A stretch of 64,000 bases of DNA from an uncultured Granulosicoccaceae bacterium (GTDB lineage Bacteria > Pseudomonadota > Gammaproteobacteria > Granulosicoccales > Granulosicoccaceae), in the NCBI GenBank assembly GCA_938035945.1, contig CALHOU010000019.1, forward strand, positions 1 to 64,000, written 5' to 3'. The notes beneath the pieces are model-generated. The model made no database searches. It was not told where the DNA came from and was given only the letters and a program-made list of their open reading frames with translations. Shown here one piece after another: positions 7,549-64,000 of the stretch. The position numbers and the translations under genes are program-made. The stretch's first letter is position 1; each line of letters opens with the position of its first letter.

Positions 7549-8451
7549 ATGCCAAACGCCCTGCGCCCTTTCATCCCCATCCTGTTCGTCCTACTGTGGA
7601 GCACAGGCTTTATCATGGCGCGTTGGGGCATGGAAACCGCAGAGCCTGCAAGTTTCTTATCGATTAGGTTTGCACTGGCCGCCTTCGTCCTTCTAGCGAT
7701 TGCACTTATTTTTCCAAAGCTCAAAACCCTGCCACTGGACTGGACCCAAGTCGCTCACGCAGCCGTGGCTGGTGTATTGCTGCAAGCTGTGTATTTGGGC
7801 GGTGTGTTTGCGGGCGTCAACCAGGGTATAGGCGCGGGTTTGTCGTCTCTGATTGTCGGTATACAGCCTGTGCTGACTGTTGTACTTGCAGCCGTTTGGT
7901 TGTCAGAGAAGTTAACCTGGGCCAAGGTGATCGGGATTGCGATGGGGTTTATTGGTGTGGCGCTTGTTACCGCCGAATGGGGCCATGTTGATGGCGCTAT
8001 CTCCTTACAAGGCATCGGTTTTTGTGTTGCCGCATTACTTGGAATAACGATCGGCACGCTTTATCAAAAGCGCTTTTGTCAATCGCTTGATTTACACATC
8101 AACATGATCGTGCAATACGTTGCAAGCGTGCTGTTCCTCTTGCCGTTCGCACTAATCTGGGAATCCTACACCATTGATTGGACGCCGAAGCTAATTGCAG
8201 TGCTTGTATGGCTGGTGTTTGTACTCTCTATTGGTGCCGTTTTTTTGCTTATGTGGTTAATAAAAATGGGCGAAGCGGGCCGAGTGTCAACATTATTCTT
8301 TTTAGTACCACCAGTTGTTGCCATTGAAGCATGGATACTGTTCGACGAACCACTAACACTTTATGTGATCATAGGCACTTTGCTGTGCATATTCGGCGTT
8401 GCTATCGTGAGCGGGGTATTCAGTAAATTTCAACAAAGTACGACTAAGTGA
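7549..8451 (+). CDS. DMT superfamily (EamA) transporter
   Basis: About 10 hydrophobic segments, EamA-type duplication; ATG at 7549 preferred over TTG at 7507. Confidence 0.8.
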   Translation: MPNALRPFIPILFVLLWSTGFIMARWGMETAEPASFLSIRFALAAFVLLAIALIFPKLKTLPLDWTQVAHAAVAGVLLQAVYLGGVFAGVNQGIGAGLSSLIVGIQPVLTVVLAAVWLSEKLTWAKVIGIAMGFIGVALVTAEWGHVDGAISLQGIGFCVAALLGITIGTLYQKRFCQSLDLHINMIVQYVASVLFLLPFALIWESYTIDWTPKLIAVLVWLVFVLSIGAVFLLMWLIKMGEAGRVSTLFFLVPPVVAIEAWILFDEPLTLYVIIGTLLCIFGVAIVSGVFSKFQQSTTK

Positions 8452-9051: not shown

Positions 9052-9924
9052 CTACCAGCCAGTCGCTTCCTTAACAGCCAAACCAAGTTCAGCAGGTGAG
9101 CGCGTAATCGTAACGCCTGCAGAACCTAGTGCCGCGAACTTATCATCCGCAGTACCTTTACCACCAGAGATAATCGCCCCAGCGTGGCCCATGCGTTTTC
9201 CAGGAGGTGCAGTCACACCAGCAATGTACGCAGCGACGGGCTTAGTCACATTCGACTTAATAAATTCGGCGGCCTCTTCTTCTGCTGTACCACCGATTTC
9301 ACCCACCATTAAAATGGCTTCGGTTTGTGGATCGTCCTGGAACAGCGCCAGCGCATCGATAAAACTTGTGCCCGGGATTGGGTCACCACCAATACCAATG
9401 CACGTGCTTTGGCCGTAGTTCAAATCAGATGTTTGCTTAACGCATTCGTAGGTCAAGGTACCAGAGCGTGAAACCACACCCACTTTACCGGCGTTATGAA
9501 TCGAACCAGGCATAATGCCAATCTTACATTCACCTGGCGTGATAATACCGGGGCAGTTAGGGCCGATCAAACGAACACCGTTTTGCTGCACAGCAATGCG
9601 CGCTTCAAGCATATCCAAGGTAGGTATACCTTCAGTAATGCACACAATAAGCGATACGCCAGATTCTGCAGCTTCGATGATGGAGTCTTTACAAAAAGCC
9701 GCAGGAACATAAATAACCGATGCATCAGCACCGGTTTGATCAACCGCATTTTTTACTGTGTTAAATACCGGCAGATCAAGATGCGTGCTGCCACCCTTAC
9801 CCGGTGTAACGCCACCCACCATTTTCGTACCGTATTCAATAGCTTGTTCACTATGAAAGGTACCCTGGCTACCGGTTATACCCTGACATATCACTTTAGT
9901 GTCTTTATTGATCAAAACACTCAT
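9052..9924 (-). CDS. sucD: succinyl-CoA synthetase (ADP-forming) subunit alpha
   Basis: [44 protein letters not shown]; adjacent to sucC. Confidence 0.97.
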
Positions 9925-11090
9925 GACGCTGCTCCTACGGTTTCTACAATCTTGGTAGCGGCATCTCCCAGATCACTGGCAGATTGTAAGTTCAAACCAC
10001 TTTGATCGAGTAACTCCCGACCTTCTTTGGCTTTAGTGCCTTCGAGTCGCACAACCACAGGCACATCGATTCCAACTTCTTTAACGGCCGCAATAACACC
10101 ATTAGCGATAAGGTCGCAACGCACAATGCCACCAAAGATATTAACCAAAATGCCTTTAACATCAGGGTCAGATAAGATAATTTTTAACGCTTCGGTTACG
10201 CGCTCTTTAGTCGCACCGCCACCAACATCTAGAAAGTTTGCTGGCTGACCGCCTTTTAGCTTGATGATATCCATCGTTGCCATCGCTAAACCAGCACCAT
10301 TAACCATACAACCGATGTTGCCCTCAAGCGCGACGTAGTTAAGATCCCACTCAGCTGCGCGCAACTCACGCTCATCTTCCTGGGTCTTATCTTGTAAGGC
10401 TTCCAAGTCAGGGTGGCGATAAAGTGCATTGCCATCAACGTTGATCTTGCCGTCCAAGCAAATCAGATCTTCTTCTTTAGTAATGACCAGCGGGTTGATT
10501 TCAACCAAGGCTAAATCTTTTTCTACAAACAACTTACACAAACCCGTTAACAGCGCAGAAAACTGTTTGATCTGTTTGCCTTTCATACCTAGGCCGAACG
10601 CAAGCTCGCGGCATTGGTATGGCATAACACCTACCAATGGATTGATGGCTTGCTTTAGAATTTTTTCTGGGGTTTCGTGAGCAACGGTTTCGATGTCCAT
10701 TCCACCTTCGGTTGATGCCATGATCACTACGCGCTGGCTGGCGCGATCTATAACCAAGCCCAAATAAAGTTCGCTAGCAATGTTGCTGGTTTCTTCAATT
10801 AGAACCGTGTTAATGGGTTGGCCGTTCGCATCGGTTTGAATGGTAACCAGTTGCGTACCCAATAATGATTTCGCAAATTCTGCTGCTTCGTCTGGCGTAT
10901 CCACAAGTTTTACACCACCGGCTTTACCTCGGCCACCTGCGTGCACTTGAGCTTTAACAACCACTTTATCGGTGGTGAGTTTTTCAGCGCCAGCTTTCGC
11001 TTCAGCAGGCGTTGACGCAACAATGTTGTTCGGAACCGGCATACCGTATTCTGCGAACAAGGCTTTCGCCTGGTACTCATGTAGATTCAT
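9921..11090 (-). CDS. sucC: succinyl-CoA synthetase (ADP-forming) subunit beta
   Basis: [37 protein letters not shown]. Confidence 0.97.
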
Positions 11091-35938: not shown

Positions 35939-36103
35939 TTAGGATCCAGAGGAGTTGCCGCCGGCTCCACTGCCACCACCATTGCCGTCGCTACCCGTCA
36001 TCCCATTGGCGGTTTCTGAAATATCCAATTCATTCAGGGTTGGCGTCTGCCAGACTTTCAATGTTTCCAAGTCTTTCTGTGATTTTATTTGTTCATTACT
36101 CAT
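35939..36103 (-). CDS. putative lasso-peptide-like RiPP precursor (A), 54 aa
   Basis: ATG at 36103 with RBS aaaagga 8 nt upstream. MSNEQIKSQKDLETLKVWQTPTLNELDISETANGMTGSDGNGGGSGAGGNSSGS: leader WxxPxLxxLD...T, Gly/Ser/Asn-rich C-terminus; next to RiPP enzymes. Confidence 0.75.
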   Translation of the reverse strand: MSNEQIKSQKDLETLKVWQTPTLNELDISETANGMTGSDGNGGGSGAGGNSSGS

Positions 36104-36271
36104 TAAAAATATCCTTTTAGATTTATTCTTTCGCGAACGAATCATAGTAATTATTTTGACAGCCCGATATAAGACTAATGGGTAGTTCAATCACCAATTT
36201 GTCTACAAATACTATATAGAGTAAATATTCAAGCCAAAACACGTTATTAAGTACTATTTGCACTTTCACAT

Positions 36272-38161
36272 CTAAGTGTATTTTCTAATAAACAGTCCTG
36301 TTGCAATCGCATTAAGGAATATTCCATAAGCAGACATATGAGTCGCAAAATCGGGCTGGGGGTTATTTTTTATATCGTGCCAAATGCTGTTAACCAATTT
36401 CAAATCAATGACGTCTCGGACATAGGGGTCTTTTGAGAAGTCATCGAGCAGGTATTCAATTCTTGTGGCGTCTTGGCGTAATTTGTGAACCAAGTCCGCT
36501 GCCTGAAGGCCACGAACCTGATTGATGAGCACATCTCGTGGTAAAAAACTCGAGACCTGTTTAGCCAACCACCTCGGTTCGTCATTGGGACCGATAAAAA
36601 CCCTGTCTGGCAATCCCAAGGTATAGAGAACCAATGCAGTATCAGACGTGGGATCCAAAACATCCATCCCGTGAGTTCTGGAGAGCGCATCCCAGAGCAC
36701 GCCTGCGCCAATCTTTGGCGCTAGGAATTCCAGACGTTCGTCGAGCGAATTCTGGTGTAGGTTTGTTGTGTAAAACGTAGGATCATGACCTGCAACCTTC
36801 ATCAGGCCGACAAGGTTTAATCGTTCAACAAATTTCTTATTAATGGGCGAATACTCGCGCCATGGATTACCACCGGTTTTTAACAATAAGAGCATTTTTC
36901 TGACATCCAAAACCGGACGCTTCCACCTCGATTTTGATAAAGCTCTTCTAAACTTCAAAGATCGTAGATCCTCGGTAATACTGTTTGCTCGTCGCCCGGC
37001 AAAAGAAAAAGTAATATTTCCAAGACCGCCATTGAGCAATACATGATTTCCATCCGATTGACTTTGTTTTGCAACACTGTTTATCCAGTGATCATTACTG
37101 GTGGCATAAAATGGCTGACAGGTTGAAGCAATAGAATGTTCTATCCCTTGAATCGGGGAAATGTCCGCCGAATCTACCGTGTGAAATTTTATGTTCGGTT
37201 GGGAATTTGCTATTAGTTTCGCTAACTCTGCCTCATTCGCTGTTCGACCCTTGCGAACTATTGTGTTTTCCGGGTACAGTGGAATAGAGCAGTAAGCATC
37301 AAGACTAACATTACTTTCAGACAGTGTTTTCGCCGCCATCATTGCGACGCTTGACGAATCAAGACCGCTACTTAGCATGCTTGACGTATTAAGTTTTGTA
37401 CACACTCTGGAATCAACTGCTTTTTGTAATAGCGCGCCGGTAGCCTCTATTGCCTCCGCCTGGCTAATGTTATTGTTGATTTCAATGTTCTCCTCCATTT
37501 TCCAAAATCTGCGCACGCTGATTTGATTGCCTTCAAATGTCAACATGCTTGCGGGAGGTAAAAAATGAATGTTCTCAAAGCAGGTTAGATAATCGTTTTC
37601 ACCGTCCCAGCGTGTCATGGATTTGGCGATGTAAATATCTCTGATTTTCTTCTCTACGCTGGGCAACACGAGTAAAGATTCAAGAGCGGTACTAAAGGCG
37701 AATAATTCGCGGTTTTTTACGTAATATAGTGGCTTCTGACCATGATGTTCCCTGGCAATAACAAGCGTTTTATCTGCTTTATTCCATCCAGAAATAATCC
37801 AATCCCCAAACGCACTGCAAAAATTCGTATCCCTATTTCTTCTTATGAAGGTTTCTATTAGCTCGATATCACTGTAAGCATCTTTGTCAGTGCTTGATAA
37901 ACCAAGCGATGACATGACATACTTTTTGTCGTCAAGTCGACAATGGCCACTGAATACCCAACTGTCAGTATTCCTTATCTTTTGTTTTCCACCTCTAAGC
38001 ACGTCAGATTCGATGTTTACCTGACCCAACATGACATTCTCAGTGATTACACTGTCAGTTGAATAGTGATTAAACCGACTTAACCCATGTAACATTCGCT
38101 GAGAATAATCATGTATGTCGATTGAGTCATTGCTCAAAATCAGGCCGCATATTCCAGACAT
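36272..38161 (-). CDS. asparagine synthetase-like protein (lasso peptide cyclase C homologue)
   Basis: Class-II amidotransferase-like N-term (MSGICGLI) and synthetase domain SSMLSSGLDSSSVAMMAA (SGxDSS PP-loop). Confidence 0.88.
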   Translation of the reverse strand: MSGICGLILSNDSIDIHDYSQRMLHGLSRFNHYSTDSVITENVMLGQVNIESDVLRGGKQKIRNTDSWVFSGHCRLDDKKYVMSSLGLSSTDKDAYSDIELIETFIRRNRDTNFCSAFGDWIISGWNKADKTLVIAREHHGQKPLYYVKNRELFAFSTALESLLVLPSVEKKIRDIYIAKSMTRWDGENDYLTCFENIHFLPPASMLTFEGNQISVRRFWKMEENIEINNNISQAEAIEATGALLQKAVDSRVCTKLNTSSMLSSGLDSSSVAMMAAKTLSESNVSLDAYCSIPLYPENTIVRKGRTANEAELAKLIANSQPNIKFHTVDSADISPIQGIEHSIASTCQPFYATSNDHWINSVAKQSQSDGNHVLLNGGLGNITFSFAGRRANSITEDLRSLKFRRALSKSRWKRPVLDVRKMLLLLKTGGNPWREYSPINKKFVERLNLVGLMKVAGHDPTFYTTNLHQNSLDERLEFLAPKIGAGVLWDALSRTHGMDVLDPTSDTALVLYTLGLPDRVFIGPNDEPRWLAKQVSSFLPRDVLINQVRGLQAADLVHKLRQDATRIEYLLDDFSKDPYVRDVIDLKLVNSIWHDIKNNPQPDFATHMSAYGIFLNAIATGLFIRKYT

Positions 38162-38175
38162 AAAGGTTGCTCTTT

Positions 38176-39855
38176 TTAGATATCTAACAGCTGATAGTTG
38201 TGAAGTTTCTTTTTACTGGTTGCAATTGAAGATAGGGACGATTCATGACTAATAATGATCACGCCCTTGTCTTTACTCCATTCGGGTGAACGCTCTATAA
38301 ACCAATTAACGCCATCACTATCAAGCATAGAAGTGGGCTCATCCAGAATTAAAAAGCCAGGATGAGTCATAACCGCCCTGGCAAAAGAAAGCTTTTGCTG
38401 TTGTCCACCCGACAAGCCTGCTCCACCTGTTACCAATTGAGTGTCCAACCCTTCTGGCAAGTCATCTATGAACGTTTGCGCGCCTGATTGAAAAAGAGCT
38501 TTGCGGAGGTCGTCCGCTGAACAGTTTCTTCCCAACAGAAGGTTATCCTTTATAGGTCCTTGCCTAAGCATTGGTTGCTGCGCAACATATCCAAAATTAC
38601 TTCGCCAACTTTTATCTTGCGAGCGCATCGAAGAAGCACCTGAAATAGAAATCTCACCTTTTGCAGGAGCTAACAAATCCAGTAGTAGATAGGCAAGAGT
38701 GGACTTACCTGAACCATTTTCACCTGTTAGTAGCAGTATATCCCCCTGTTTTAAATTAAAGCTTATATTTTCAAGCAGCCGCTCACCTCGTCCATACGAG
38801 AAAGACAGATCATCAACCCTTAATACTAAGTCGGAGTCGTTTGTCTGTGGCGTCTGCTTGATTACTGGCGTAAGCCTTGGTTCTTTGTGGTCACTCGAGT
38901 TTGTATCGAGCAATCGCATGATTCGCTCATAGGCAGCAAAGGCCTGTTGATATTTTGCAAATATTCCCGCCAAAGCAGCAAATGGCCGCACCACCAACAA
39001 TCCATACAATAATAAATAACTCCAGTCAGACGGTTTTAGATTGGCCTTTAATGCACTCCCAAAAACTAAAATTGAACCTATGACTAATATGAGTAAGCTA
39101 AAAAACCTAACGATTGGTGTAATAGAAGATTGTAATGCTATATAAGATAAGGATTGGTTTCTTAATGATTTATTCAATTCAGAAAAATTAGCTATTGAAT
39201 AACTCTCAGTCGCAGTGGCCTTTGTTATTAAGTACGTAAGAAAATTCTCTTCGGCGTGGGCAAATAGTTCTCCTTGAGTCTGCAGCATTTTCGCAGCTCG
39301 TCGCCGAGTCAGCCTTCTTAAAAGCACCGATATTACAATGGTCGGAAATGCCGCAAACAATATAACTAATGACAGTACTGGGCTTGTTTTGAGAATGACT
39401 AAATATGCGCCGAGTGCCGTAATAAGTTGAAGCAGTACAAGCGGTAAGTTATTCCCCAAAAAATATCCCAGTACATTCGTATCGGCCGTTAATCTGGATA
39501 ATCTTTCTCCCCGAGCATGTTCATTCCACTGTTTTAAAGCTGAGTTAATACTATTCGAATAGACAGCCTCACGAAAATCAAAAATTATCTGCTGAGTGAC
39601 CTTTCCACTCTGGTAAATGGCATAAAAAGAGGCGACAGATTGAAATGCCATAACGCCAATCCAGCCGGAGACAAGCTGTGAGATGGCCAATCTATGACTT
39701 TGAGACTCGTCAAATCCAAGCTCGATTAACCTGCCCAAAAACCAAGGAAAACTCAGCAGCGCAATACTGCTAAGGACTAGCGCAATTGCGATTAAAACCA
39801 GACGGCCGTAATGGGGCTGTATATATTTAACATCTATGAATTTACCAGCTTGCAT
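38176..39855 (-). CDS. ABC transporter, fused TM and ATPase domains (RiPP exporter D candidate)
   Basis: TM domain; Walker A GENGSGKST; LSGGQQQKLSFARA; Walker B FLILDEPTS. Confidence 0.92.
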   Translation of the reverse strand: MQAGKFIDVKYIQPHYGRLVLIAIALVLSSIALLSFPWFLGRLIELGFDESQSHRLAISQLVSGWIGVMAFQSVASFYAIYQSGKVTQQIIFDFREAVYSNSINSALKQWNEHARGERLSRLTADTNVLGYFLGNNLPLVLLQLITALGAYLVILKTSPVLSLVILFAAFPTIVISVLLRRLTRRRAAKMLQTQGELFAHAEENFLTYLITKATATESYSIANFSELNKSLRNQSLSYIALQSSITPIVRFFSLLILVIGSILVFGSALKANLKPSDWSYLLLYGLLVVRPFAALAGIFAKYQQAFAAYERIMRLLDTNSSDHKEPRLTPVIKQTPQTNDSDLVLRVDDLSFSYGRGERLLENISFNLKQGDILLLTGENGSGKSTLAYLLLDLLAPAKGEISISGASSMRSQDKSWRSNFGYVAQQPMLRQGPIKDNLLLGRNCSADDLRKALFQSGAQTFIDDLPEGLDTQLVTGGAGLSGGQQQKLSFARAVMTHPGFLILDEPTSMLDSDGVNWFIERSPEWSKDKGVIIISHESSLSSIATSKKKLHNYQLLDI

Positions 39856-40169: not shown

Positions 40170-41150
40170 ATGCTGCACGAATCCAATCATAACAATATAT
40201 CTCAATTCACTTTACAGCATCACTATGCTGCCTTTGGCATGCACGTTGACTCCTCTCTCCCACTACCTGAATTATGCACACCGGAACAGAAGAACATTGA
40301 AACACGCTTGCAACGCGTGACAATAAGTGAGTGTAGATCTATCGAAACTGACGGCATACAGCTTGAAGAAAACCAGTGGCTAGCGGTTTCGGAAAACAGA
40401 TTGCTTTTCAGAATTAATAACGTTGGGTCCTTTTTGGTTAGTAACGGCAAAGATATAAGATTCGAAAGAACTGTGGTTGACGGCAACGACGTGGTATTGG
40501 ACAAAGACCTCAGAGTATTCATTCTGGGTTCGTGCTTCGGCGCTATAGCCCTTCAAAATAAGTTGCTACCCATACACGGGAGTGTTGTGGTTTTAGAGAA
40601 AGGCGCCATGGCTTTTGTTGGCGATTCTGGTGCAGGTAAATCTACCATGCTAGGTTCGTTTCTAGCATGCGGATATAAAATGTTGACAGATGACGTGTGT
40701 GTTCTCAATTTTGATGATGACCGACCAACAGCATTTCCAGCTTATCCACAATGCAAATACAACAAAGACAGCGCAGATCTTTTAGGGCACAAATTTGATA
40801 ATATGCGATGGATAAACAGATTTAAATCAAAAAAATATTTGGACACAGCCGATCACTTTGAAACTCAGTCGCAGCCGTTGACCACTATCATTGCACTAGA
40901 ACCCAGCGCGAGCGCAAACAAATTGATGATGAATAAAATTAACGGTTTAGAAAAGTTTGAGACCATCTTTCGAAATACTTATAGACAGGTATTTCATTAT
41001 GGAGAAGAGAATAAGAAAACAATTTTACAGCAGGTTGCCAATTGCACGCAGAATTGCGAAGTCTATAAGTTAATCAGACCAACATCGAAAAGCTACTCTC
41101 CTGAAGAAATGGTTGAATTCGTTACAGATTTCTGCGCCTCAGCCGTTTAA
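40170..41150 (+). CDS. HPr kinase/phosphorylase C-terminal-domain-like kinase (lasso tailoring kinase candidate)
   Basis: LPIHGSVVVLEKGAMAFVGDSGAGKSTMLGSFLACGYKMLTDDVCVL (HprK-type P-loop and LTDD). Confidence 0.85.
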   Translation: MLHESNHNNISQFTLQHHYAAFGMHVDSSLPLPELCTPEQKNIETRLQRVTISECRSIETDGIQLEENQWLAVSENRLLFRINNVGSFLVSNGKDIRFERTVVDGNDVVLDKDLRVFILGSCFGAIALQNKLLPIHGSVVVLEKGAMAFVGDSGAGKSTMLGSFLACGYKMLTDDVCVLNFDDDRPTAFPAYPQCKYNKDSADLLGHKFDNMRWINRFKSKKYLDTADHFETQSQPLTTIIALEPSASANKLMMNKINGLEKFETIFRNTYRQVFHYGEENKKTILQQVANCTQNCEVYKLIRPTSKSYSPEEMVEFVTDFCASAV

Positions 41151-41199: not shown

Positions 41200-41478
41200 A
41201 TGAATATTACTGACAATACAGAATTAAGCCGTAGTAAGAATATCCCATTCTCTGAAATTGATGATGAGCTTGTGATGATGGACTTAGACCAGGGAAAATA
41301 TTACGGTCTTAATAGCGTTGGTAGTTCAATTTGGACTCTGCTAAGTGAACCAATCACTTTTGGAAAGTTGTGTGATGAATTGCAGCTGGAATATAAAGTG
41401 GAACGGGATGAGTGCCAGAAGCAAGTTAAGGAGTTTGTTACTCAGCTACTAAAATCTAAGCTGGTCAACGTAAAGTAA
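41200..41478 (+). CDS. PqqD-family RRE protein (lasso B1 homologue)
   Basis: IDDELVMMDLDQGKYYGLNSVGSSIWTLLSEPITFGKLCDEL typical of PqqD-like RRE. Confidence 0.88.
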   Translation: MNITDNTELSRSKNIPFSEIDDELVMMDLDQGKYYGLNSVGSSIWTLLSEPITFGKLCDELQLEYKVERDECQKQVKEFVTQLLKSKLVNVK

Positions 41479-41524: not shown

Positions 41525-41986
41525 ATGGAAGCATATTTTCGACGCCTATCAAGAATTCCTCTGGTATTGGAATCAACGTTTTGGCTTGCATTGGCACACC
41601 TGCTAAGAAAGATTCTTCCAATTGCAAAGTTGTTTAAACTACTGGGGATCCACGCTCTACCGTTAACTACTGAGCATCGCGAACTGGTATTAAACCCACA
41701 GAGACCTTCCAAAGGCCTACCAACACGTTACCTCGATCGTATAGCCAAATTCTTAAAATTGGACAAACCCTGTCTCACAACAGCCATTAGCGCCAGATTA
41801 ATGTTTGGCATTCGTAATTCGAAAACAGAAATTGTATTAGGCGTAGCGCATAACGATAGTAGATCGCTAATTGCACACGCCTGGGCAATATACGATGGGC
41901 AAATCATTACCGGGCGTGGGACCGAGGTGCAATTTAATCCTATTTCCGTTTTCTCTTGCGAGAATCCATTTACAAAAAGGCGCTAA
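41525..41986 (+). CDS. lasso peptide biosynthesis B2-like transglutaminase-fold protease
   Basis: CLTTAISARLMFGIRNSKTEIVLGVAHNDSRSLIAHAWAIYDGQIITG: Cys ... AHAW of Transglut_core3/B2. Confidence 0.85.
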   Translation: MEAYFRRLSRIPLVLESTFWLALAHLLRKILPIAKLFKLLGIHALPLTTEHRELVLNPQRPSKGLPTRYLDRIAKFLKLDKPCLTTAISARLMFGIRNSKTEIVLGVAHNDSRSLIAHAWAIYDGQIITGRGTEVQFNPISVFSCENPFTKRR

Positions 41987-42071: not shown

Positions 42072-42332
42072 CTAACTTCTACGTGGGCTTCTAAAAAGCA
42101 TCGCGATAAACACACCGGCACTCATAACCACACCGGTAATTCCAATCCCATATACGCCTGATATATTACGGTAGCTCCCGCCCATAAAAATTGGGAAATA
42201 AACCCACAGACAGCCTGCTAAAACCGCCATGCTAAACGTGAACACAAAATCTCTATAGCCACGCGATAGCACCACACTAGCCATCATGCCTATCAACAAA
42301 GACAGAAATGCGACGATAATAAACGGGTTCAT
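42072..42332 (-). CDS. small hypothetical membrane protein
   Basis: 86 aa, three hydrophobic segments; no family recognised. Confidence 0.5.
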   Translation of the reverse strand: MNPFIIVAFLSLLIGMMASVVLSRGYRDFVFTFSMAVLAGCLWVYFPIFMGGSYRNISGVYGIGITGVVMSAGVFIAMLFRSPRRS

Positions 42333-42522: not shown

Positions 42523-43599
42523 ATGCTTTCAATTATTTGTCAAATTTGCTCCAGAGAAAATAGCTCTCTAACGGTAGAAATAAGTGACAAACAATGGAAA
42601 GAACTACTATTTCTAGTAAAGCGGCATCGAATAGAACCACTTGTATACGAAAGTATCCGCAAAAAAAATATTAGCGTACCTAATGCAATAAAGGAAGAGT
42701 TGAAAGGCCTGGTACGAAAAAATTTGTTCAAAGGTCTGCTCTATGCGTCTGAACTAAACCGAATAAATACCAGGTTCGAATCCGAAAACATACAGTACCT
42801 TTGTTTTAAAGGATTAGCTATTTCTAGCCTGTGCGGCAAAGATTTTTCACAACGTCATGTAGGTGACATGGATCTCCTGCTGATAGATTCTGCCGATTTA
42901 ATTCGATCCATAACCATACTGAGGGAACTCAATTATCACAGCGAAATTATAAGTAACATAAACAGCGCTGCAGAGATTGAACGGTTATTAGCTCAAACCA
43001 ATAAAAAAGACTTCACTTTTGTCAATGTTGACAACGGTGTGACGATCGAATTGCACATTAAATTATTTACTTTATTTACCACATTTCCCGTTTCACACGA
43101 AGAACTTTATGCAAATCGTGAATACATCGATATTGCAGATAATAAAATTCCATGTATGGGAACCCAACATCACCAACTATATTTACCCATTCATGGCGCT
43201 CATAGTCGATGGTTTAGATTAAAATGGCTATTCGATATACCAATGCTAGACAGTGTGAATGGTTTTTATTCAGATCTAGACAAAAATTTCGAAACGTCTG
43301 CTATCAATAATAAATACATATTTGCTCAAATGATGTGTTTAGCTGATGACCTTCTAGGTATTAAAGCACCAATTTCCATTGCAGATTTTCGGCGCAAAAA
43401 CATCAGATTGCAATGGCTGATTTGGTTCGCTAAACGATGTCTAATCCGCAAACCAATTAGCGATTTTACTCGTTTTGAAAGTGCAGTTTACGGAATCATG
43501 ACTGAGTCAGCCTACCGTCCCCTGCTTTATGATTCACCCGCAGTAAACTACCGGGACATCAAAAGGCGAATTATTAGATCAGTTACCCCTAGGCGATAA
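42523..43599 (+). CDS. uncharacterised nucleotidyltransferase family protein (NTP_transf_5-like)
   Basis: FKGLAISSLCGKDFSQRHVGDMDLLL (GDxDLL) typical of the family seen in RiPP/polysaccharide loci. Confidence 0.8.
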   Translation: MLSIICQICSRENSSLTVEISDKQWKELLFLVKRHRIEPLVYESIRKKNISVPNAIKEELKGLVRKNLFKGLLYASELNRINTRFESENIQYLCFKGLAISSLCGKDFSQRHVGDMDLLLIDSADLIRSITILRELNYHSEIISNINSAAEIERLLAQTNKKDFTFVNVDNGVTIELHIKLFTLFTTFPVSHEELYANREYIDIADNKIPCMGTQHHQLYLPIHGAHSRWFRLKWLFDIPMLDSVNGFYSDLDKNFETSAINNKYIFAQMMCLADDLLGIKAPISIADFRRKNIRLQWLIWFAKRCLIRKPISDFTRFESAVYGIMTESAYRPLLYDSPAVNYRDIKRRIIRSVTPRR

Positions 43600-56214: not shown

Positions 56215-57681
56215 GTGGGAGAGAAGGACCCGCTAGAAAAGCAGCTTGAAATAGTACAACGAGCCTATTCTCGTGAAAAAAAGCGCCGCAAGTGTGCCGA
56301 AAAAATTCTTGAAGATAAATCCCGAACCTTATATTTGTCCCAACAAGAGCTTACGAATACGACTCAAGCTCTATCGATTGCATCAGATAAACTTGAAAAC
56401 CAAACTGAGTTACTTTCGGATCTCGCAGAAGATTATGATCGAGTAACCAAAGAATTGGCTTACGCTGCCAGAATTCAAAAAAGTCTTCTACCAAACTCCG
56501 TTAGCCATCCTGGATTCTGCGCGACAGGACAGCTCAAACCGGCTCAATTTATAGCTGGAGATGGTTACGATTTCTTCAATTTACGTGATGATATTTTAAG
56601 TTTCTATATTCTTGATGTGGCAGGGCACGGAATTGCCGCGGCCATGACATCGTTTGCCATTCAAATTCAACTTAACCCAAAACTTGATGGGATATGCCAA
56701 AAGCATCTTGCAGACTCTAAAAATATTGAAGAAGCCGTAAGTAACACGATTCTAGAAATAAATCACATTTTCTATCATGAGCACCGAGACTCTCAGTACT
56801 TTACGATGATTTACGGTCTCATAGACTTGAACACTGGCAGAGTAACTTTTGCACAAGCCGGTCACCCTCCTCCCATACAATGTAGTGTTAATTCAGGCAA
56901 AGCAATACCACATGGGAAGGGTGGCACACCTGTGGCAATGTTTGATAAACCTTCTTTTGGAATTTATCACTGCAACATGGAACCGGGAGACAAATTATGT
57001 ATTTATTCAGATGGTATTACAGAATGCAGAAACAAACATGATGAGGAATTTGGTGATGAGCGTCTGATTAATCTATTAGAACGTCACGCCCATCGTACAA
57101 TAAAAGAAACCACCGATTCTGTTATTGCAGAGATATGCACATGGAATGGCGGTGAAATATTTGAAGATGATTTATCCGTGCTTATAATAGAATACAAGAG
57201 CTTAGACGTAGAACATAGCACACCATCTGACCCAAAATTAATTTATAGCAACGCCTGCAAACTAAGCAATTTGACCAAAATACAGCAGGAAATTGAAATT
57301 TTTCTATCGGATTGTTATCAAGACGACATAACATTAAATTTTACAACGCTTGCCATCATTGAAGCCATGGCGAATACATTCGAGCATGGATTTCAATCTA
57401 TCGAGATTTCCGATCCAGAAATACGCATTACGATTAGCAAGGTTGCACAAAAGGTAACCGCTACCATTAAAGACAGTGGAGACACTATCCCAAAAAACGT
57501 ATTGGAACAAATGTCAAACACGGGTGTTAACATGCCTTCTACAGATGTTTCAAACGATGATTTACCTGTTTCTGGATGGGGTTTAAATTTAATAAATAGC
57601 GCCACATCGTCAGTACGCTACTATCAAATAGAAAATTTAAATCATCTCGAACTTACTTTCGATTGCCCAGAACACAAATAG
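56215..57681 (+). CDS. SpoIIE-type PP2C phosphatase with N-terminal coiled coil and C-terminal HATPase (RsbW-like) domain
   Basis: LAYAARIQKSLLP; DVAGHGIAAAM; YSDGITECRN; N-box EAMANTFEHG and GWGLNLI. Start uncertain (GTG 56215, TTG 56206, or ATG 56158). Confidence 0.88.
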   Translation: MGEKDPLEKQLEIVQRAYSREKKRRKCAEKILEDKSRTLYLSQQELTNTTQALSIASDKLENQTELLSDLAEDYDRVTKELAYAARIQKSLLPNSVSHPGFCATGQLKPAQFIAGDGYDFFNLRDDILSFYILDVAGHGIAAAMTSFAIQIQLNPKLDGICQKHLADSKNIEEAVSNTILEINHIFYHEHRDSQYFTMIYGLIDLNTGRVTFAQAGHPPPIQCSVNSGKAIPHGKGGTPVAMFDKPSFGIYHCNMEPGDKLCIYSDGITECRNKHDEEFGDERLINLLERHAHRTIKETTDSVIAEICTWNGGEIFEDDLSVLIIEYKSLDVEHSTPSDPKLIYSNACKLSNLTKIQQEIEIFLSDCYQDDITLNFTTLAIIEAMANTFEHGFQSIEISDPEIRITISKVAQKVTATIKDSGDTIPKNVLEQMSNTGVNMPSTDVSNDDLPVSGWGLNLINSATSSVRYYQIENLNHLELTFDCPEHK

Positions 57682-59096
57682 TTTAATCTCAGGAATTTCA
57701 TTAACCCTCTTTTCACCAGGGCCAGTCGATCTGTTGCCAAGAAGGTTGCATCCGCCATTAGTATATCGTCAATCGAACTTTGGCTGTTCAGTTCAATTTG
57801 GGCAGGCCCAAGAATGCCAACTGGATATTCGTCTCTGATAAATTGCCAGGGCTCACTACGACCAGCTAAGTCGTCCGGCCGGCATATTGATACACCAAAC
57901 CAATTCAACTCCCCTAGAAAAACATTGATTAAAAACGGAAGTTTGGACAGTGTGCTATTACGACAGCGAATCCTAAAGCTATTTATCTGATTTTGATTCT
58001 GACCTTTATGACGTGCACTACCTAAGATACGAATACGCTCGATAGGCTTGAGCCCATTTTTCGTAAAAGCATCGAAGAAGGCGAACAACCAAGCCGGAAT
58101 TAATAGTAATAAGATTATACCGGCGACCATTCTTCCAACCACACCGGTGAATTGCGACAAGAAGGCTGTTTCTGTTAATCCACTGATTAGTTGATTGTCA
58201 TTAAGTGTTAGTGATGTACCCAGGTCCACACGTATATAGGTATTGCGCCAAAGTATCGCATTTTCAATATTAAGACGTTCACCTACAAAGGTATTGTCCA
58301 GAATAACGCTGTTGGATATCCGTGTATGTCGATCTACTATGACATTATTACCCACTAAGACGGAGCCTTTGCATTGAACCGATTTCTCTAATCGACAGCC
58401 CTCACCAACCAACATCTCTCCATACTCAAGGTTTCCAGAATCTACTATCGATCTCGATCCCGCTACTAAACCTGGCGATATTTCCTTACCACGAAGTAGT
58501 ATGCCGTTGTAACGGTGGCGAACAACAGCCATGTTTGAAGCTAAGTAGCTCTCGAGAGAGCTTATCCTAGTACAATGCTCCATGTGCAACTGAACCTTAG
58601 CAAAACCATGTTTTGCCACCGATAATCGTGCTGCTCGCACTGAGTCAAAAAAATAGACACCAACATCGACCTCATTGAGCATACCTAGGACAGACGGTTT
58701 GTTTACTAAACACATCTGCTGTAAAGCCTCTTTAATTTCAAAGGACCTAAATACGCTTGCATCTAGTATTAAGTAAGAACATTCATTATCAGGCCGCTCC
58801 TGATCTATAAACTTGGCAGCATCCGTATTTCCGCGAGTCGTGGTATAGGTAATATTCATACCCCAGCGCTCGCCACTTCCAACAAACTCTCGAACCTGTC
58901 CGGCAAAACTGCACACTAGCAACTGAACTTCACGTACAGATAAGGGTATCAGCGACTCCAGCACGTGCTCAATAAGCGGCTTTCCACCTATCGGCAGCAT
59001 TGCTACATTTGTCGTATCTGTTAACGGTTTGAGTAACTCTCCCGCATTGTCTGCTATTACAACGACCTTTATCTCTTTTTCTAGCTCATATTCCAT
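57642..59096 (-). CDS. fusion: degenerate NTP-transferase-like + left-handed beta-helix + sugar-transferase-like C-terminus
   Basis: PIGGKPLIEHVLESL; hexapeptide-like VLVGNNVIVDRHTRISNSVILDNTFVG; LSKLPFLINVFLGELNWFGVSICRP resembles LxxLPQLINVLKGEMSLVGPRP. Confidence 0.7.
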   Translation of the reverse strand: MEYELEKEIKVVVIADNAGELLKPLTDTTNVAMLPIGGKPLIEHVLESLIPLSVREVQLLVCSFAGQVREFVGSGERWGMNITYTTTRGNTDAAKFIDQERPDNECSYLILDASVFRSFEIKEALQQMCLVNKPSVLGMLNEVDVGVYFFDSVRAARLSVAKHGFAKVQLHMEHCTRISSLESYLASNMAVVRHRYNGILLRGKEISPGLVAGSRSIVDSGNLEYGEMLVGEGCRLEKSVQCKGSVLVGNNVIVDRHTRISNSVILDNTFVGERLNIENAILWRNTYIRVDLGTSLTLNDNQLISGLTETAFLSQFTGVVGRMVAGIILLLLIPAWLFAFFDAFTKNGLKPIERIRILGSARHKGQNQNQINSFRIRCRNSTLSKLPFLINVFLGELNWFGVSICRPDDLAGRSEPWQFIRDEYPVGILGPAQIELNSQSSIDDILMADATFLATDRLALVKRGLMKFLRLNYLCSGQSKVSSR

Positions 59097-61012
59097 TAGT
59101 AAGCACCTCTTCCGGAAAAAACAGCAGGTATAGTTTTCAGCAAGATAATGATGTCATTTAATGTTCCACGCGACTCCAGATAATCAATATCTAATTCAAC
59201 TTGTTCTTCAAAAGTTGTATCCGATCTGCCGGACACTTGCCACAAACCTGTAATGCCTGGCGTGACTTCAAGTCGACGTCTATCTCGACCCGAATACTTA
59301 TCGACCTCATTTGGCAATGGAGGCCTTGGACCCACTAGAGACATTTCACCTTTTAAAACGTTAATGAGCTGAGGCAATTCATCGATCGAATATCTACGTA
59401 TAGTTCTTCCAATTCTTGTAACGCGTGGATCAATTTTCATCTTAAAGGTGACTCCACCAGCAACCTCATTGGACTCCAATAACACATTCTGCGCTCTTTC
59501 AGCATCAGTTCTCATTGATCGGAACTTGAGCATATTAAAGGGCTCACCGTATCGTCCAATACGGTTTTGCTGAAACAACACAGGACCACGTGATTCGATC
59601 TTAATAATAATGGAGACCAACAGCATCAGCGGAGACAAAAATACAAGAGCACTAGATGCAACAACGATATCTATAAATCGTTTTGTTATTTTTAGCAATT
59701 GATGCCGAATAATCCATACATTCTGTTGGCGTATATATCTTTTATTGGATTGAATACCTGTCCTGTACGGATTCATGAAACGTCTATAGGTGGCAACACC
59801 ACTATCATCTTTTGATTGGCGATATATTCGATACAGGAAAAGAGGATTACCAATCAAATACCGTTTCCACAATCGCATCGGTTCTTGCTTGAGCCTCCAT
59901 ACCCACTCCATACCTATATCTTGAACCCACCTTGGAGCTCTGGAGATTCGACTTGTATGAAAATCAAATAAGCCTCCAACACCTATCTGCACTAAAGAAC
60001 TAAAATTATTAAAGTTATTTTCAATAAACCCCTCTTGGATTGGTGCTCCTAAACCCACTAATAATATATCCGCTTTAGATTCATTAATAGAGCGAATAAT
60101 ATCGGGCAATTCCTGGGATCCAAAATATCCATGTTGTGTACCAACTATTCTAAGGTTGGGAAAACACTTGCGTAATTCTTTCGCCGCATCCTCCGAAACA
60201 CCAGGCTTACCACCCAGTAAATATATGGAGTAATCGTTCTCTAGACAGCGTGTACACAGCCTTGGAAGCAAATCTGTTCCATTGACATTGCCCTTTAAAT
60301 TTACGCCAAGTATTCTCGCGCCCATTTGTAAACCAATACCATCGGCGAATACAGCTGTCATTCTTGATAAGGTTTCTCTATATGGGATATTCTTTACTGA
60401 AATGTTCAGGCAATCTGCATTTACAAACGCATATCGCGACTTCTGGTTTGCATCCAGCCCATTTACAATCATAGATACAGCATCGTCTAATACCATATTG
60501 TCAATGGGAACACCTAGCATGCTAAATTGTTCCGGGCTTTGATAACTAGATTTACCTACAAGAAGCTTTATGAGAAGGTATCGAAACAATACACCCAGCT
60601 TGGCCAAGATGGATTCACTAGAGGCAACCTCGTTCTCGTACTGAGTACCACTGCGTTCTCGTAGCTTTTGTAAATTAACAAGGCAGCATTTCTCACCTCC
60701 TAAGACTGAATCACCATAGTCAATTGTTCGCTGCTTAGAGATCGCCTCATCTAATAGCAGCCCGTTACCCACGAATACCACATCACCATTGACTATGTTA
60801 AACAAATAACCCAAATTTCTACCATACATAAACCCTGCAAATTTGAGTATGGATACTGACCCTGAACTCGTCACTAATTGCGTTTTTTCAAACACCGAAC
60901 CTAACTTATATAACGCCACAATTGATCTAAACACCAAAAACGGCATTATCACCAAAATGACAATAACAGCCAGGATTCTGTCAAAACAACACTCATTCAC
61001 TGCTCTACTCAA
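59096..61012 (-). CDS. WecG/TagA-family glycosyltransferase fused to WcaJ-like polyprenyl-phosphate sugar phosphotransferase
   Basis: FVNADCLNISVKN, ADGIGLQMGARILG (WecG/TagA); KFRSMRTDAE, SIDELPQLINVLKGEMSLVGPRPPLPNEV, GITGLWQVSGRSD (sugar transferase). Confidence 0.92.
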   Translation of the reverse strand: MSRAVNECCFDRILAVIVILVIMPFLVFRSIVALYKLGSVFEKTQLVTSSGSVSILKFAGFMYGRNLGYLFNIVNGDVVFVGNGLLLDEAISKQRTIDYGDSVLGGEKCCLVNLQKLRERSGTQYENEVASSESILAKLGVLFRYLLIKLLVGKSSYQSPEQFSMLGVPIDNMVLDDAVSMIVNGLDANQKSRYAFVNADCLNISVKNIPYRETLSRMTAVFADGIGLQMGARILGVNLKGNVNGTDLLPRLCTRCLENDYSIYLLGGKPGVSEDAAKELRKCFPNLRIVGTQHGYFGSQELPDIIRSINESKADILLVGLGAPIQEGFIENNFNNFSSLVQIGVGGLFDFHTSRISRAPRWVQDIGMEWVWRLKQEPMRLWKRYLIGNPLFLYRIYRQSKDDSGVATYRRFMNPYRTGIQSNKRYIRQQNVWIIRHQLLKITKRFIDIVVASSALVFLSPLMLLVSIIIKIESRGPVLFQQNRIGRYGEPFNMLKFRSMRTDAERAQNVLLESNEVAGGVTFKMKIDPRVTRIGRTIRRYSIDELPQLINVLKGEMSLVGPRPPLPNEVDKYSGRDRRRLEVTPGITGLWQVSGRSDTTFEEQVELDIDYLESRGTLNDIIILLKTIPAVFSGRGAY

Positions 61013-61908
61013 GATCTATTCCTCGCTGTAAAGCTCTTTCTGCTTTCAGGTGAGTCGACAGAAAACCCATAGCTTTTAGAATGATTTGCCAATAGAAATG
61101 AAATAAGCCTTTTTTGCAGCCAATGTAAGCTGCCTTTTTTCTTTCTTGCGAAAGTAGCAGGCTCTTTCACTTCAGTACCGGATAGTTGTCCAAATTCGCC
61201 ATACTTATGCAGGGTGAATCCTTGATGTAGCATAGTTTGCAAAGTTCGGTCGTCCACTGGACTATTCAGGTACTTCATTATCGTTTTCAAAGTAGTTGTG
61301 GGGCATGATTTAAGCGATTCATACCGCACAACACAAATTCCAGGATCGCTGAGTAGTAACTCCTCTGTGCCTGGGCTGGAGAAAAAATACTGATATTTTC
61401 TAATCGCGAAAAATGTTGATTTGGGCGCCCAACTTTGCCCCCAACTTTCGGCTGCATTCAGAATAGATTCGATAACATCTTCCGGCTTTCGCAGCAAAAC
61501 AATTATTCGTGCGTCCGGAAACACACTACGAATATCAGCAATGCAGCGCAAATGATCAGGAGTTTTATCAAGAAACATTTTGTTTTCATTATATTCTGGC
61601 ACATTAGAATACACACGCTTAGCCGTTTCTCGAAGTAACTCAAGAAAATCCTCCTCCGTAAGATAGGCAGGCAAACCAATTCCACCACGACCATCTTCAA
61701 AGTTGAGTATATGCTTCCAGCTGTTTATCATCGGCTGTAGAAAATGATTGAAAAGATGCGACTCCTGAGCTGTACCTATTTCTGGGTGGTTACTTAAAAT
61801 ACCTTGCAACCAGGTTGTTCCACTGCGCGGCGGCCCAACCAAGAAAACCATTTTCTCATTTATGTCTTGGTCTTGATCTTTTTCATTTATATTAGAGTTT
61901 GTATTCAT
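61009..61908 (-). CDS. sulfotransferase family protein
   Basis: FLVGPPRSGTTWLQGILSNHPEI (5'-PSB loop); FLDKTPDHLRCI. Confidence 0.9.
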   Translation of the reverse strand: MNTNSNINEKDQDQDINEKMVFLVGPPRSGTTWLQGILSNHPEIGTAQESHLFNHFLQPMINSWKHILNFEDGRGGIGLPAYLTEEDFLELLRETAKRVYSNVPEYNENKMFLDKTPDHLRCIADIRSVFPDARIIVLLRKPEDVIESILNAAESWGQSWAPKSTFFAIRKYQYFFSSPGTEELLLSDPGICVVRYESLKSCPTTTLKTIMKYLNSPVDDRTLQTMLHQGFTLHKYGEFGQLSGTEVKEPATFARKKKGSLHWLQKRLISFLLANHSKSYGFSVDSPESRKSFTARNRS

Positions 61909-62984
61909 GAGCGAACCAACAATTTATTAATAATGAACACTTTTGCAACAACTGCCGACGCAGCATCTTTTACTTTTATTCTTAGAGACTGAATTTGCCC
62001 GGTAACAAACAGTCCAATCGGCATAAGCCTATTAAAACTCTGAGCCGGCAACAGCTTGAGTAAATATGCCGAGATTCCTGTAACTATGGTTCTGGATGGC
62101 TCGTGAAGAACAATACTCCAATCCATCACAATTGATTTCTTGAACATGTCCACAGCCATGGGACCGTCTGCCAGACGTATCGCTTGCCTGGATAAATACC
62201 TTAGTTGGTAGGCTTTCGCTCTTCTGCCATGCTGTTCAATGAGTTCGGGCGCGTACGATTGGGTTTTTGTTATTACTTTTTCCCAAGTGTCTAACTGCTT
62301 AGGTATGTTCGCTGACAGCCCTCCAGAATTGAGTCGATACAACGTAAGTGGCTCAGACAGTCCTTCTATACGCCATCTGGTAAGTAATCTAATGCGCAAC
62401 CAACATTCGATGTCTTCTGATTGTCTGAATGATTCGTCGAAGTAACTATCATTATCACAATGACCATTATTAGCTGAAAATTTAATATCATCGAACACCT
62501 GCTTTCGAACTACTGGCGCTGAACCATTACCAATAGGATTTCTACACAACAGATATTCAGGCGGCACATGATCCAATCGAGGCATCTGATGAGTTCCTAA
62601 TTTCTCACCTTTTTCATCGATAAAGGCTGACCTGGAGAAACTTAAACCGATAGAGTCATTAGATCTAAAGTGTGCAAGATGTTGTTCTAACTTAGTTGGT
62701 TCCCACACGTCATCTGAATCCAAGAAAGCGATGTAATCGCCTGACGCAAATCGAATACCTGTATTTCTGGCGCCAGCAAGGCCTCTATTTTCAGAATGAC
62801 GGACTATTTTTATTCGTCTGTCATCAAATTGCTTGCAGAGCTCAATGCTTCTATCTGGCGAACAATCATCGATAACTAACAATTCAAAGTCTTTATGTGT
62901 TTGATCTAACACCGACTGAACAGCCGATTCAACAAACTCCTCTACGCGGAAAACCGGCATCACTACTGATACAAAACTCATCAT
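61905..62984 (-). CDS. glycosyltransferase family 2
   Basis: VVMPVFRVEEFVESAVQSVLDQTHKDFELLVIDDCSPD; FLDSDDVW. Confidence 0.93.
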   Translation of the reverse strand: MMSFVSVVMPVFRVEEFVESAVQSVLDQTHKDFELLVIDDCSPDRSIELCKQFDDRRIKIVRHSENRGLAGARNTGIRFASGDYIAFLDSDDVWEPTKLEQHLAHFRSNDSIGLSFSRSAFIDEKGEKLGTHQMPRLDHVPPEYLLCRNPIGNGSAPVVRKQVFDDIKFSANNGHCDNDSYFDESFRQSEDIECWLRIRLLTRWRIEGLSEPLTLYRLNSGGLSANIPKQLDTWEKVITKTQSYAPELIEQHGRRAKAYQLRYLSRQAIRLADGPMAVDMFKKSIVMDWSIVLHEPSRTIVTGISAYLLKLLPAQSFNRLMPIGLFVTGQIQSLRIKVKDAASAVVAKVFIINKLLVRS

Positions 62985-64000
62985 ACAAATCCTCGAATAA
63001 CAGGGAGCGAACTATGCTCTTCAACTTCCCGACGTGGTTTGACCACGAATAAAAAATGCAAAGGAGCCGCTATGAATTGAACACTCACAATGGCAATCAC
63101 TAAACCCAATAACCCCCAGTACAAACCAATAATCATTGCTAACACAAACGTACACGTATAAAAACAGTTCCAACGCAGATCATCTGAGGGCCGATTCTGG
63201 GCGCGAATATACTGCGCACCTGCCTCAGTAATAAGTAAAGGTATACCCATCAGGCATAGGAGTGACACATACGTTACAGCCCCCAGTTCTTCCCATTTTT
63301 CACCAAACAAAAATGGAACGTAATACTGCGCAAAGTAAGCCTGAGCACACAACAAAGGAACCAATAGCAGAAGCATGTACGTAACGCCTTTTACGTATAT
63401 GGATTTCATCTCCAATAAATTATGCTTTGCTTTACAAAGATACGGATAGAAAGCATTATTCAGCGATGTTATAAAGCCTCTGGACAAACCGAGGCCTGCG
63501 TTATACGCAAAATAATAGACACCGAGAGAATGCATACCGAGAAAGTAGCCGATTAGGATATAGTCGATGTTATGCCGTACAACGCCCAGCAACTCAACAC
63601 CCAGCACTCGTCCATTAAAGCTAAGATGGTCTGACAAATAGTCTAGTGAAAGTTTTGAAGAAGGTCGCCAATCAGACCCAGTCTGGTGCAACTTAACCCA
63701 TAGAGGAATTACCAATAATTTGGGCAGCACCAAAGCCCATACACCAAAGCCAAGCAACACCAGTATCAATATTAAAACTGCATCGCATACAGTTTGTAGA
63801 ATTTCTGTTTTCGCCAGTAAATCAACTTTTCTGTCACGCAGGTTTCGAGCTGCATGTACTTGTCCTATCGGAAGCAATAGGTAACTCACGCCCAAAGTGC
63901 ACACCAAATAAAACAAGGTCTCATTTTCGTAAACGCTCGCGAGAATACCACCAATCAAACATTGAAGTAAAAACAAAGCCAATCCAACGATCCAATTTAC
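62981..64000 (-). CDS. polysaccharide flippase/transporter (Wzx-like), 5' end beyond window
   Basis: Multi-TM; frame stays open to base 64000, so the listed Met at 63982 is probably internal. Confidence 0.75.
   Translation of the reverse strand, partial: VNWIVGLALFLLQCLIGGILASVYENETLFYLVCTLGVSYLLLPIGQVHAARNLRDRKVDLLAKTEILQTVCDAVLILILVLLGFGVWALVLPKLLVIPLWVKLHQTGSDWRPSSKLSLDYLSDHLSFNGRVLGVELLGVVRHNIDYILIGYFLGMHSLGVYYFAYNAGLGLSRGFITSLNNAFYPYLCKAKHNLLEMKSIYVKGVTYMLLLLVPLLCAQAYFAQYYVPFLFGEKWEELGAVTYVSLLCLMGIPLLITEAGAQYIRAQNRPSDDLRWNCFYTCTFVLAMIIGLYWGLLGLVIAIVSVQFIAAPLHFLFVVKPRREVEEHSSLPVIRGFV

Follow-up and report, generated by a model that had tools for sequence, protein, structure and literature searches.

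A kinase-bearing lasso-type gene cluster with an extreme plug-less precursor core in an uncultured Granulosicoccaceae bacterium

Bulky plug residues are generally regarded as a requirement of lasso peptides. A short ORF of an uncultured Granulosicoccaceae bacterium, located in the 64,000-nucleotide stretch of contig CALHOU010000019.1 analyzed here (hereafter the window), encodes a lasso-type leader followed by a Gly/Ser/Asn-rich core, which raises the question of what product a core without plugs could give, and whether it stands alone among its relatives.

Precursor gene and leader

The ORF (36103..35939, minus strand) encodes the 54-aa precursor A, with the translation MSNEQIKSQKDLETLKVWQTPTLNELDISETANGMTGSDGNGGGSGAGGNSSGS, in which residues 1–32 form the leader (36103-36008) and residues 33–54 the core (36007-35942), followed by the stop codon (35941-35939). 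The core, NGMTGSDGNGGGSGAGGNSSGS, comprises 10 G, 5 S, and 3 N, with A, D, M, and T present once each, and its mixed glycine codons (GGG, GGT, GGC, and GGA) rule out a simple DNA repeat. Two readings of the original prediction hold on translation: D39 is the sole acidic residue past T31, and nothing larger than Asn follows D39, leaving no plug. A Shine–Dalgarno-like AAGGA, read from the sequence (36112..36116, minus), stands 7 nt ahead of the ATG, and the leader carries W18-x-x-P21-x-L23 (codons at 36035..36052, minus), an instance of the WxxPxL motif defined as RRE-binding (PMC13381572).

The leader matched the NCBIfam profile NF033524 (paeninodin-family lasso peptide) with 25.2 bits (E 1e-5), short of the curated cut-off of 27. 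Across 369 genomes of the class, this profile recovered no precursor above its cut-off, and precursor A was the top match (E 1.3e-4; runner-up 0.019). A search of its own genome with precursor A returned no match besides itself, and the genomes searched yielded no close orthologue. In scans for promoters and terminators, sites were no more numerous than in shuffled sequences. A different bona fide precursor in or near the locus, which would have displaced precursor A from the original prediction, was sought by a motif scan of both strands at 28–52 kb, and no second credible leader-bearing candidate emerged. The slightly sub-threshold leader score is what could speak for a spurious ORF or for some other ORF as the true precursor; we give this almost no credence, as it is opposed by the leader motif, the Shine–Dalgarno site, the location after the cyclase gene, the unique match in the genome, and the fit of a Trp leader to the B1 pocket described below. 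We conclude that ORF 36103..35939 is the raw peptide (precursor) of a lasso-type natural product.

Gene cluster and enzymes

An intact biosynthetic set adjoins precursor A, with D, C, and A in succession on the minus strand and K, B1, B2, and N on the plus strand. C (36272..38161, minus; 629 aa) is an asparagine-synthetase-like macrolactam cyclase with PF00733 and PF13537 domains and an SSGLDS motif, scoring 163.9 bits against NF033535, below the cut-off of 525. D (38176..39855, minus; 559 aa) is an ABC exporter (PF00005, PF00664). K (40170..41150, plus; 326 aa) is an HPrK-like peptide kinase that shows weak HPrK-related profile matches and the full H-x14-G-x2-G-x-GKS-x15-DD motif; every residue of the lasso-kinase motif is present, with spacing identical to that of BsfK (motif from PMC10368454). 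B1 (41200..41478, plus) is a PqqD-like RRE (NF033536, 83.5 bits; cut-off 80), and B2 (41525..41986, plus) a transglutaminase-like leader protease (PF13471; NF033537 above cut-off). N (42523..43599, plus; 358 aa) is a PF14907 nucleotidyltransferase with conserved K96-G97, R111, and D115-x-D117. Catalytic residues conserved among homologs are retained throughout: the kinase motif in K, Cys and His in B2, SSGLDS in C, and D-x-D in N. An 86-aa hydrophobic ORF of no known family (42072..42332, minus) lies between B2 and N, and its cluster membership is uncertain. The cluster genes do not include a signal peptidase. The occurrence of the cluster is sporadic, as a comparable kinase was found in only 2 of 48 genomes of the family, that of the window and one other (G030).

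The sequence profile of N returned no meaningful solved relative. Its AlphaFold model (pLDDT 84.6) resembles nucleotidyltransferases of the LnuA, MenT1, and ANT(2'') types; a weaker resemblance links it to FKRP, an enzyme using CDP-ribitol. The modeled fold agrees with a possible role in nucleotidyl or phospho-sugar transfer; N itself is assigned by family and neighborhood only.

A polysaccharide locus (57642-63982, minus) lies 14 kb from N and encodes a sugar-nucleotide transferase, a WecG/sugar transferase, a sulfotransferase, a GT2, and a flippase. Polysaccharide genes are often found near kinase-bearing lasso loci elsewhere (L055, L110, L111, L113, and L114), and such proximity has been published for Bacilli. 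In our data, an exopolysaccharide association was seen in 17 of 88 kinase-bearing loci versus 1 of 22 others, a non-significant difference (p 0.12) in a comparison based on few query proteins and stretches of unequal length.

Predicted leader recognition by B1

The closest solved relative of B1 is PbaB1 (9x90; E 2.6e-14); the corresponding leader contains WxxPxL, and in the structure its Trp is held by Q79 and E75 (PMC13381572). Q75 and E71 of the window B1 occupy these two positions. Among the B1 proteins compared, both pocket residues were shared only by those of Paenibacillus (L085) and Priestia (L086), members of Bacillota, while in all 24 B1 rows associated with Tyr leaders the position of Q79 is occupied by Asp. 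The closest B1 belongs to a locus (L044) in which no precursor was found.

Predicted ring and cleavage site

As in class II lasso clusters, precursor A adjoins a leader protease and an asparagine-synthetase-like cyclase, has Thr at leader position -2, and has an acidic residue within core positions 7–9. Taking Thr31 (codon 36011..36013, minus) as -2, N33 becomes core residue 1 and D39 (codon 35987..35989, minus) position 7, so that the seven-residue ring of the original prediction follows from the rule. Applied to 42 precursors, including that of the window, the same rule gives rings of 8 (21 precursors), 9 (18), and 7 (3), and on inspection the other two seven-residue assignments have alternatives. 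The original prediction had also considered a core starting at A32, with an eight-residue ring. This is unlikely: Thr would fall at -1, whereas Thr at -2 suits the five relatives (L118, L120, L132, L134, and L138) whose W/Y-to-Thr spacing is also 13.

In a cyclase phylogeny built by a quick method and containing long branches, the window groups with L138, L047, and L049 (SH-aLRT 96), beside Bacillota and L044 (95). The precursors collected near related genes, as the original prediction had proposed, include those of this clade, which carry a common [S/N/A]-D-G motif (L-N-D-G-G, V-A-D-G-G, A-N-D-G-T, and G-S-D-G-G, compared with G-S-D-G-N in the window); this shared motif backs D39 as the ring acid. 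By the Thr rule, L049 and L138 would have rings of 8 and L047 one of 10, and the window ring looks one residue shorter than those of L049 and L138. Seven-residue rings are known from xanthomonins, and a predicted one in the literature has E7; to our knowledge, all known rings of this size close through Glu. Fusilassin tolerates ring sizes of 7–10 (PMC13352647).

Two loci depart further from the usual rule. In L090, three paralogous precursors (9779-10465, minus) lie beside C, K, N, B1, B2, and D; they have no D/E at core positions 7–9 but a conserved E at 12, and their basic cores end in VGS (NVGS in precursor c). On a Thalassobaculum plasmid, L087 encodes a precursor (7983-8210, plus) with an adjoining C gene; this precursor, which ends in NTLGPSTFSSGQAAHVS, is acid-free after Thr and, under the usual rule, could not form an isopeptide ring.

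Terminal serine in kinase-bearing loci

Kinase-bearing loci were gathered with K from overlapping sets of 143, 399, 78, 48, and 387 genomes and supplemented by a K search of plasmids and a B1 scan of genome contigs (10 loci); plasmid searches with C and K returned distant relatives only. Precursors were chosen with a leader-only profile and inspection. A terminal Ser was present in 54 of 66 distinct precursors from kinase-bearing loci, spanning several phyla, versus none of eight from kinase-less loci (Fisher p 8e-6), a test that counts related loci as independent and whose controls belong mostly to another lasso lineage, so that lineage and kinase are confounded. Under tail-blind selection at rising leader-score thresholds, terminal Ser occurred in 37/52, 32/39, 23/29, and 15/18 precursors; the background among all small ORFs of the loci was 9.7%.

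In Firmicutes and Proteobacteria, homologs of HPrK phosphorylate linear precursors at the C-terminal Ser, in some cases more than once, and in pseudomycoidin a nucleotidyltransferase has been linked to one or two hexoses on the terminal-Ser phosphate (PMC8498205, PMC9266682). Like phosphorylated lasso systems, the window combines the H-G-G-G-K-S-D-D kinase motif with a C-terminal Ser, and as in pseudomycoidin-like clusters, a nucleotidyltransferase, recognized by PF14907 and fold, lies within the cluster. With K, N, and a terminal Ser all present, Ser54 (codon 35942..35944, minus) is the most likely target of K, which lends support to the original suggestion that the tail may serve as a modification site.

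Proposed product and pathway

From the gene set, the enzyme residues, the leader motif, the terminal Ser of the group, and the D-G motif, we infer a pathway in which B1 would bind the WxxPxL leader of precursor A and K would phosphorylate Ser54 on the linear precursor. B2 would cleave after Ala32, placing Thr31 at -2, and C would join N33, through its amino group, to the D39 side chain, giving the seven-residue ring. N may add a sugar-containing group to the Ser54 phosphate, and D would export the product. The probable outcome is a phosphate-modified lasso-type RiPP with an N33–D39 macrolactam and Ser54 phosphorylated by K, with sugar-group addition by N as a possible further step. Certain observations weigh against it. 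Of the three loci nearest by cyclase, two (L049 and L138) encode K yet have precursors terminating in K, V, or P; an acid at position 7 is rare; and L047 gives 10 by the Thr rule. In a related cluster, LppN, which corresponds to N, had no detectable effect on products.

K could alternatively act as BsfK does, whose target is ring Ser3 rather than the terminus (PMC10368454), modifying T36 or S38 and leaving the terminal Ser incidental. The identical A-B1-B2-C-D-K-N gene set of the Bsf cluster and the abundance of Ser and Thr in the window core are compatible with this reading, which we nevertheless consider rather unlikely, given the strong enrichment of terminal Ser in kinase-bearing loci and the fact that BsfA itself ends in Asp. 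It is very unlikely that C is inactive on precursor A and that the end product is a linear phosphorylated peptide resembling the linear polyphosphorylated peptides (LPPs). LPP clusters do share K, N, B1, and D with the window, and some C-bearing kinase loci have precursors lacking an acid at 7–9 (L090) or altogether (L087). Against this, the window C retains its conserved residues, B2 is present, the cluster has no signal-peptidase gene, and D39-G40 agrees with the cyclase clade.

Core composition and topology

The original prediction held that the core does not look like that of a normal lasso peptide. Its plug-less character stands, and the window core ranks first of 65 in both small-residue fraction (0.91) and glycine fraction (0.45); what does not stand is its isolation. 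The median bulky fraction of cores was 0.24 in kinase-bearing loci versus 0.48 in controls (Mann–Whitney p 1e-4). After the ring acid, 17 of 42 ring-assigned precursors have no F/W/Y/H/R/K, and five (window, L115b, L118, L122c, and L147) have no F/W/Y/H/R/K/I/L/M/Q/V. Because related tails are plug-poor and the window core heads both rankings, it marks the extreme of a trend and not a lone oddity: among the cases found, it shows in the most extreme form a plug-less trait common to many kinase-bearing lasso clusters. Many of these clusters thus combine cores having little or no plug with a conserved terminal Ser that a kinase could modify. Similar cores may already be tabulated in Zhu 2016 (paeninodin phosphorylation) and Zyubko 2019 (pseudomycoidin).

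Since the Gly/Ser/Asn-rich tail offers no bulky plug, the phosphate-modified product proposed above could be an open lariat or a threaded structure, in which the tail would be retained either by the very small ring or by the phospho-group on Ser54. The residues that lock a lasso are usually bulky (PMC13352647), and thermal stability rises with larger plugs and smaller rings (PMC7549694). The latter trend, together with the seven-residue precedent of xanthomonins, suggests that small residues might hold a thread.

An unthreaded, branched-cyclic lariat with a flexible phosphorylated tail is a real possibility that stops short of being probable. It accords with the absence of residues exceeding Asn in size past D39 and with the 17 related tails devoid of F/W/Y/H/R/K, among them the five without any bulky residue and several only 5–9 residues long; it is countered by the threaded products of known cyclases of the family and by the retention of smaller side chains in small rings (PMC7549694). 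Somewhat doubtful is a threaded lasso with a seven-residue ring in which Asn, Ser, or the Ser54 phosphate acts as the stopper. Here the xanthomonin and fusilassin ring sizes are encouraging, as is the action of such kinases on linear precursors (PMC8498205, PMC9266682), by which the terminus would already carry its modification when the ring closes; an Asp7 ring, however, would be one methylene smaller than Glu rings and may be too tight to thread.

That order of events also allows a broader proposal, which we regard as improbable: in a subset of kinase-bearing lasso clusters, plugs were lost as a phosphate or phospho-sugar on the C-terminal Ser, added before closure, became the stopper. If true, such a lasso would be locked by an end group added post-translationally, with the window core as the extreme case. 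The window cluster provides a minimal Gly/Ser scaffold for deciding between an open lariat, a small-ring lasso, and a phosphate-locked lasso.

Comparison with known systems

With its ordinary genes but extreme core, the cluster is a variant among phosphate-modified lasso-type clusters. It resembles paeninodin and paeninodin-like systems (PadeA/PadeK; PbaA/PbaB1) in its WxxPxL leader, split B1/B2, C, D, HPrK-like kinase, and C-terminal Ser, and its B1 retains the Glu and Gln of the Trp pocket. It differs in residing in a proteobacterial genome, whereas paeninodins have been called Bacillota-restricted (PMC13381572), as well as in its leader score below the family cut-off, the lack of any bulky residue past the ring acid, and the predicted seven-residue ring. 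Relative to the Bacillota paeninodin clade, the C tree places the window in a sister group, and the B1 tree did not place its B1.

Compared by description, the cluster shares with that of pseudomycoidin (Bacillus pseudomycoides) a kinase and a nucleotidyltransferase by the core lasso genes; phosphate and hexoses are reported on the terminal Ser of pseudomycoidin, whereas the role of the window N is predicted. The Bsf cluster of Bradymonas sediminis has the same genes (A, B1, B2, C, D, K, and N) and an identical kinase motif, but its precursor has Ile at -2, is phosphorylated on ring Ser3, and ends in Asp; the window, lacking the Bsf-type Ile/Val at -2, has Thr31 there and a terminal Ser. Xanthomonins I–III share the seven-residue macrolactam ring predicted here, which in the window would close from Asn1 to Asp7, in a kinase-bearing cluster and with no plug. 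LPP clusters likewise encode an RRE, an HPrK-like kinase, an NTP transferase, and an exporter, but have a SipW-like peptidase and no cyclase, in contrast to the C and B2 of the window.

Other precursors in related loci

Our survey also recovered unusual precursors and neighborhoods. A plasmid of the archaeon Halopiger xanaduensis carries a lasso-type cluster with K and N whose precursor (L089:7914-8075, minus) ends in Thr. In three Tistrella-like genomes (L152, L153, and L150), Cys-containing precursors (ending in DGNCGS, DGYCVS, and DGVGCAS, respectively) lie beside K, with B1, B2, and C absent from the stretch examined around it. A 119-aa protein (L145:4928-5287, plus) adjoining C, K, and B1 genes has a lasso-type leader (YVRPAL...NLTGGSLGDVGDGG; NF033521, 17.5 bits, cut-off 19) fused to a Peptidase_S74 endosialidase-chaperone domain (33.8 bits, above cut-off), an odd pairing of such a leader with a self-cleaving chaperone domain. 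In Azospirillum, two kinase-bearing lasso loci (L110:11609-13298 and L111:11811-13507) each precede a GNAT gene and three genes annotated as tail-fiber proteins.
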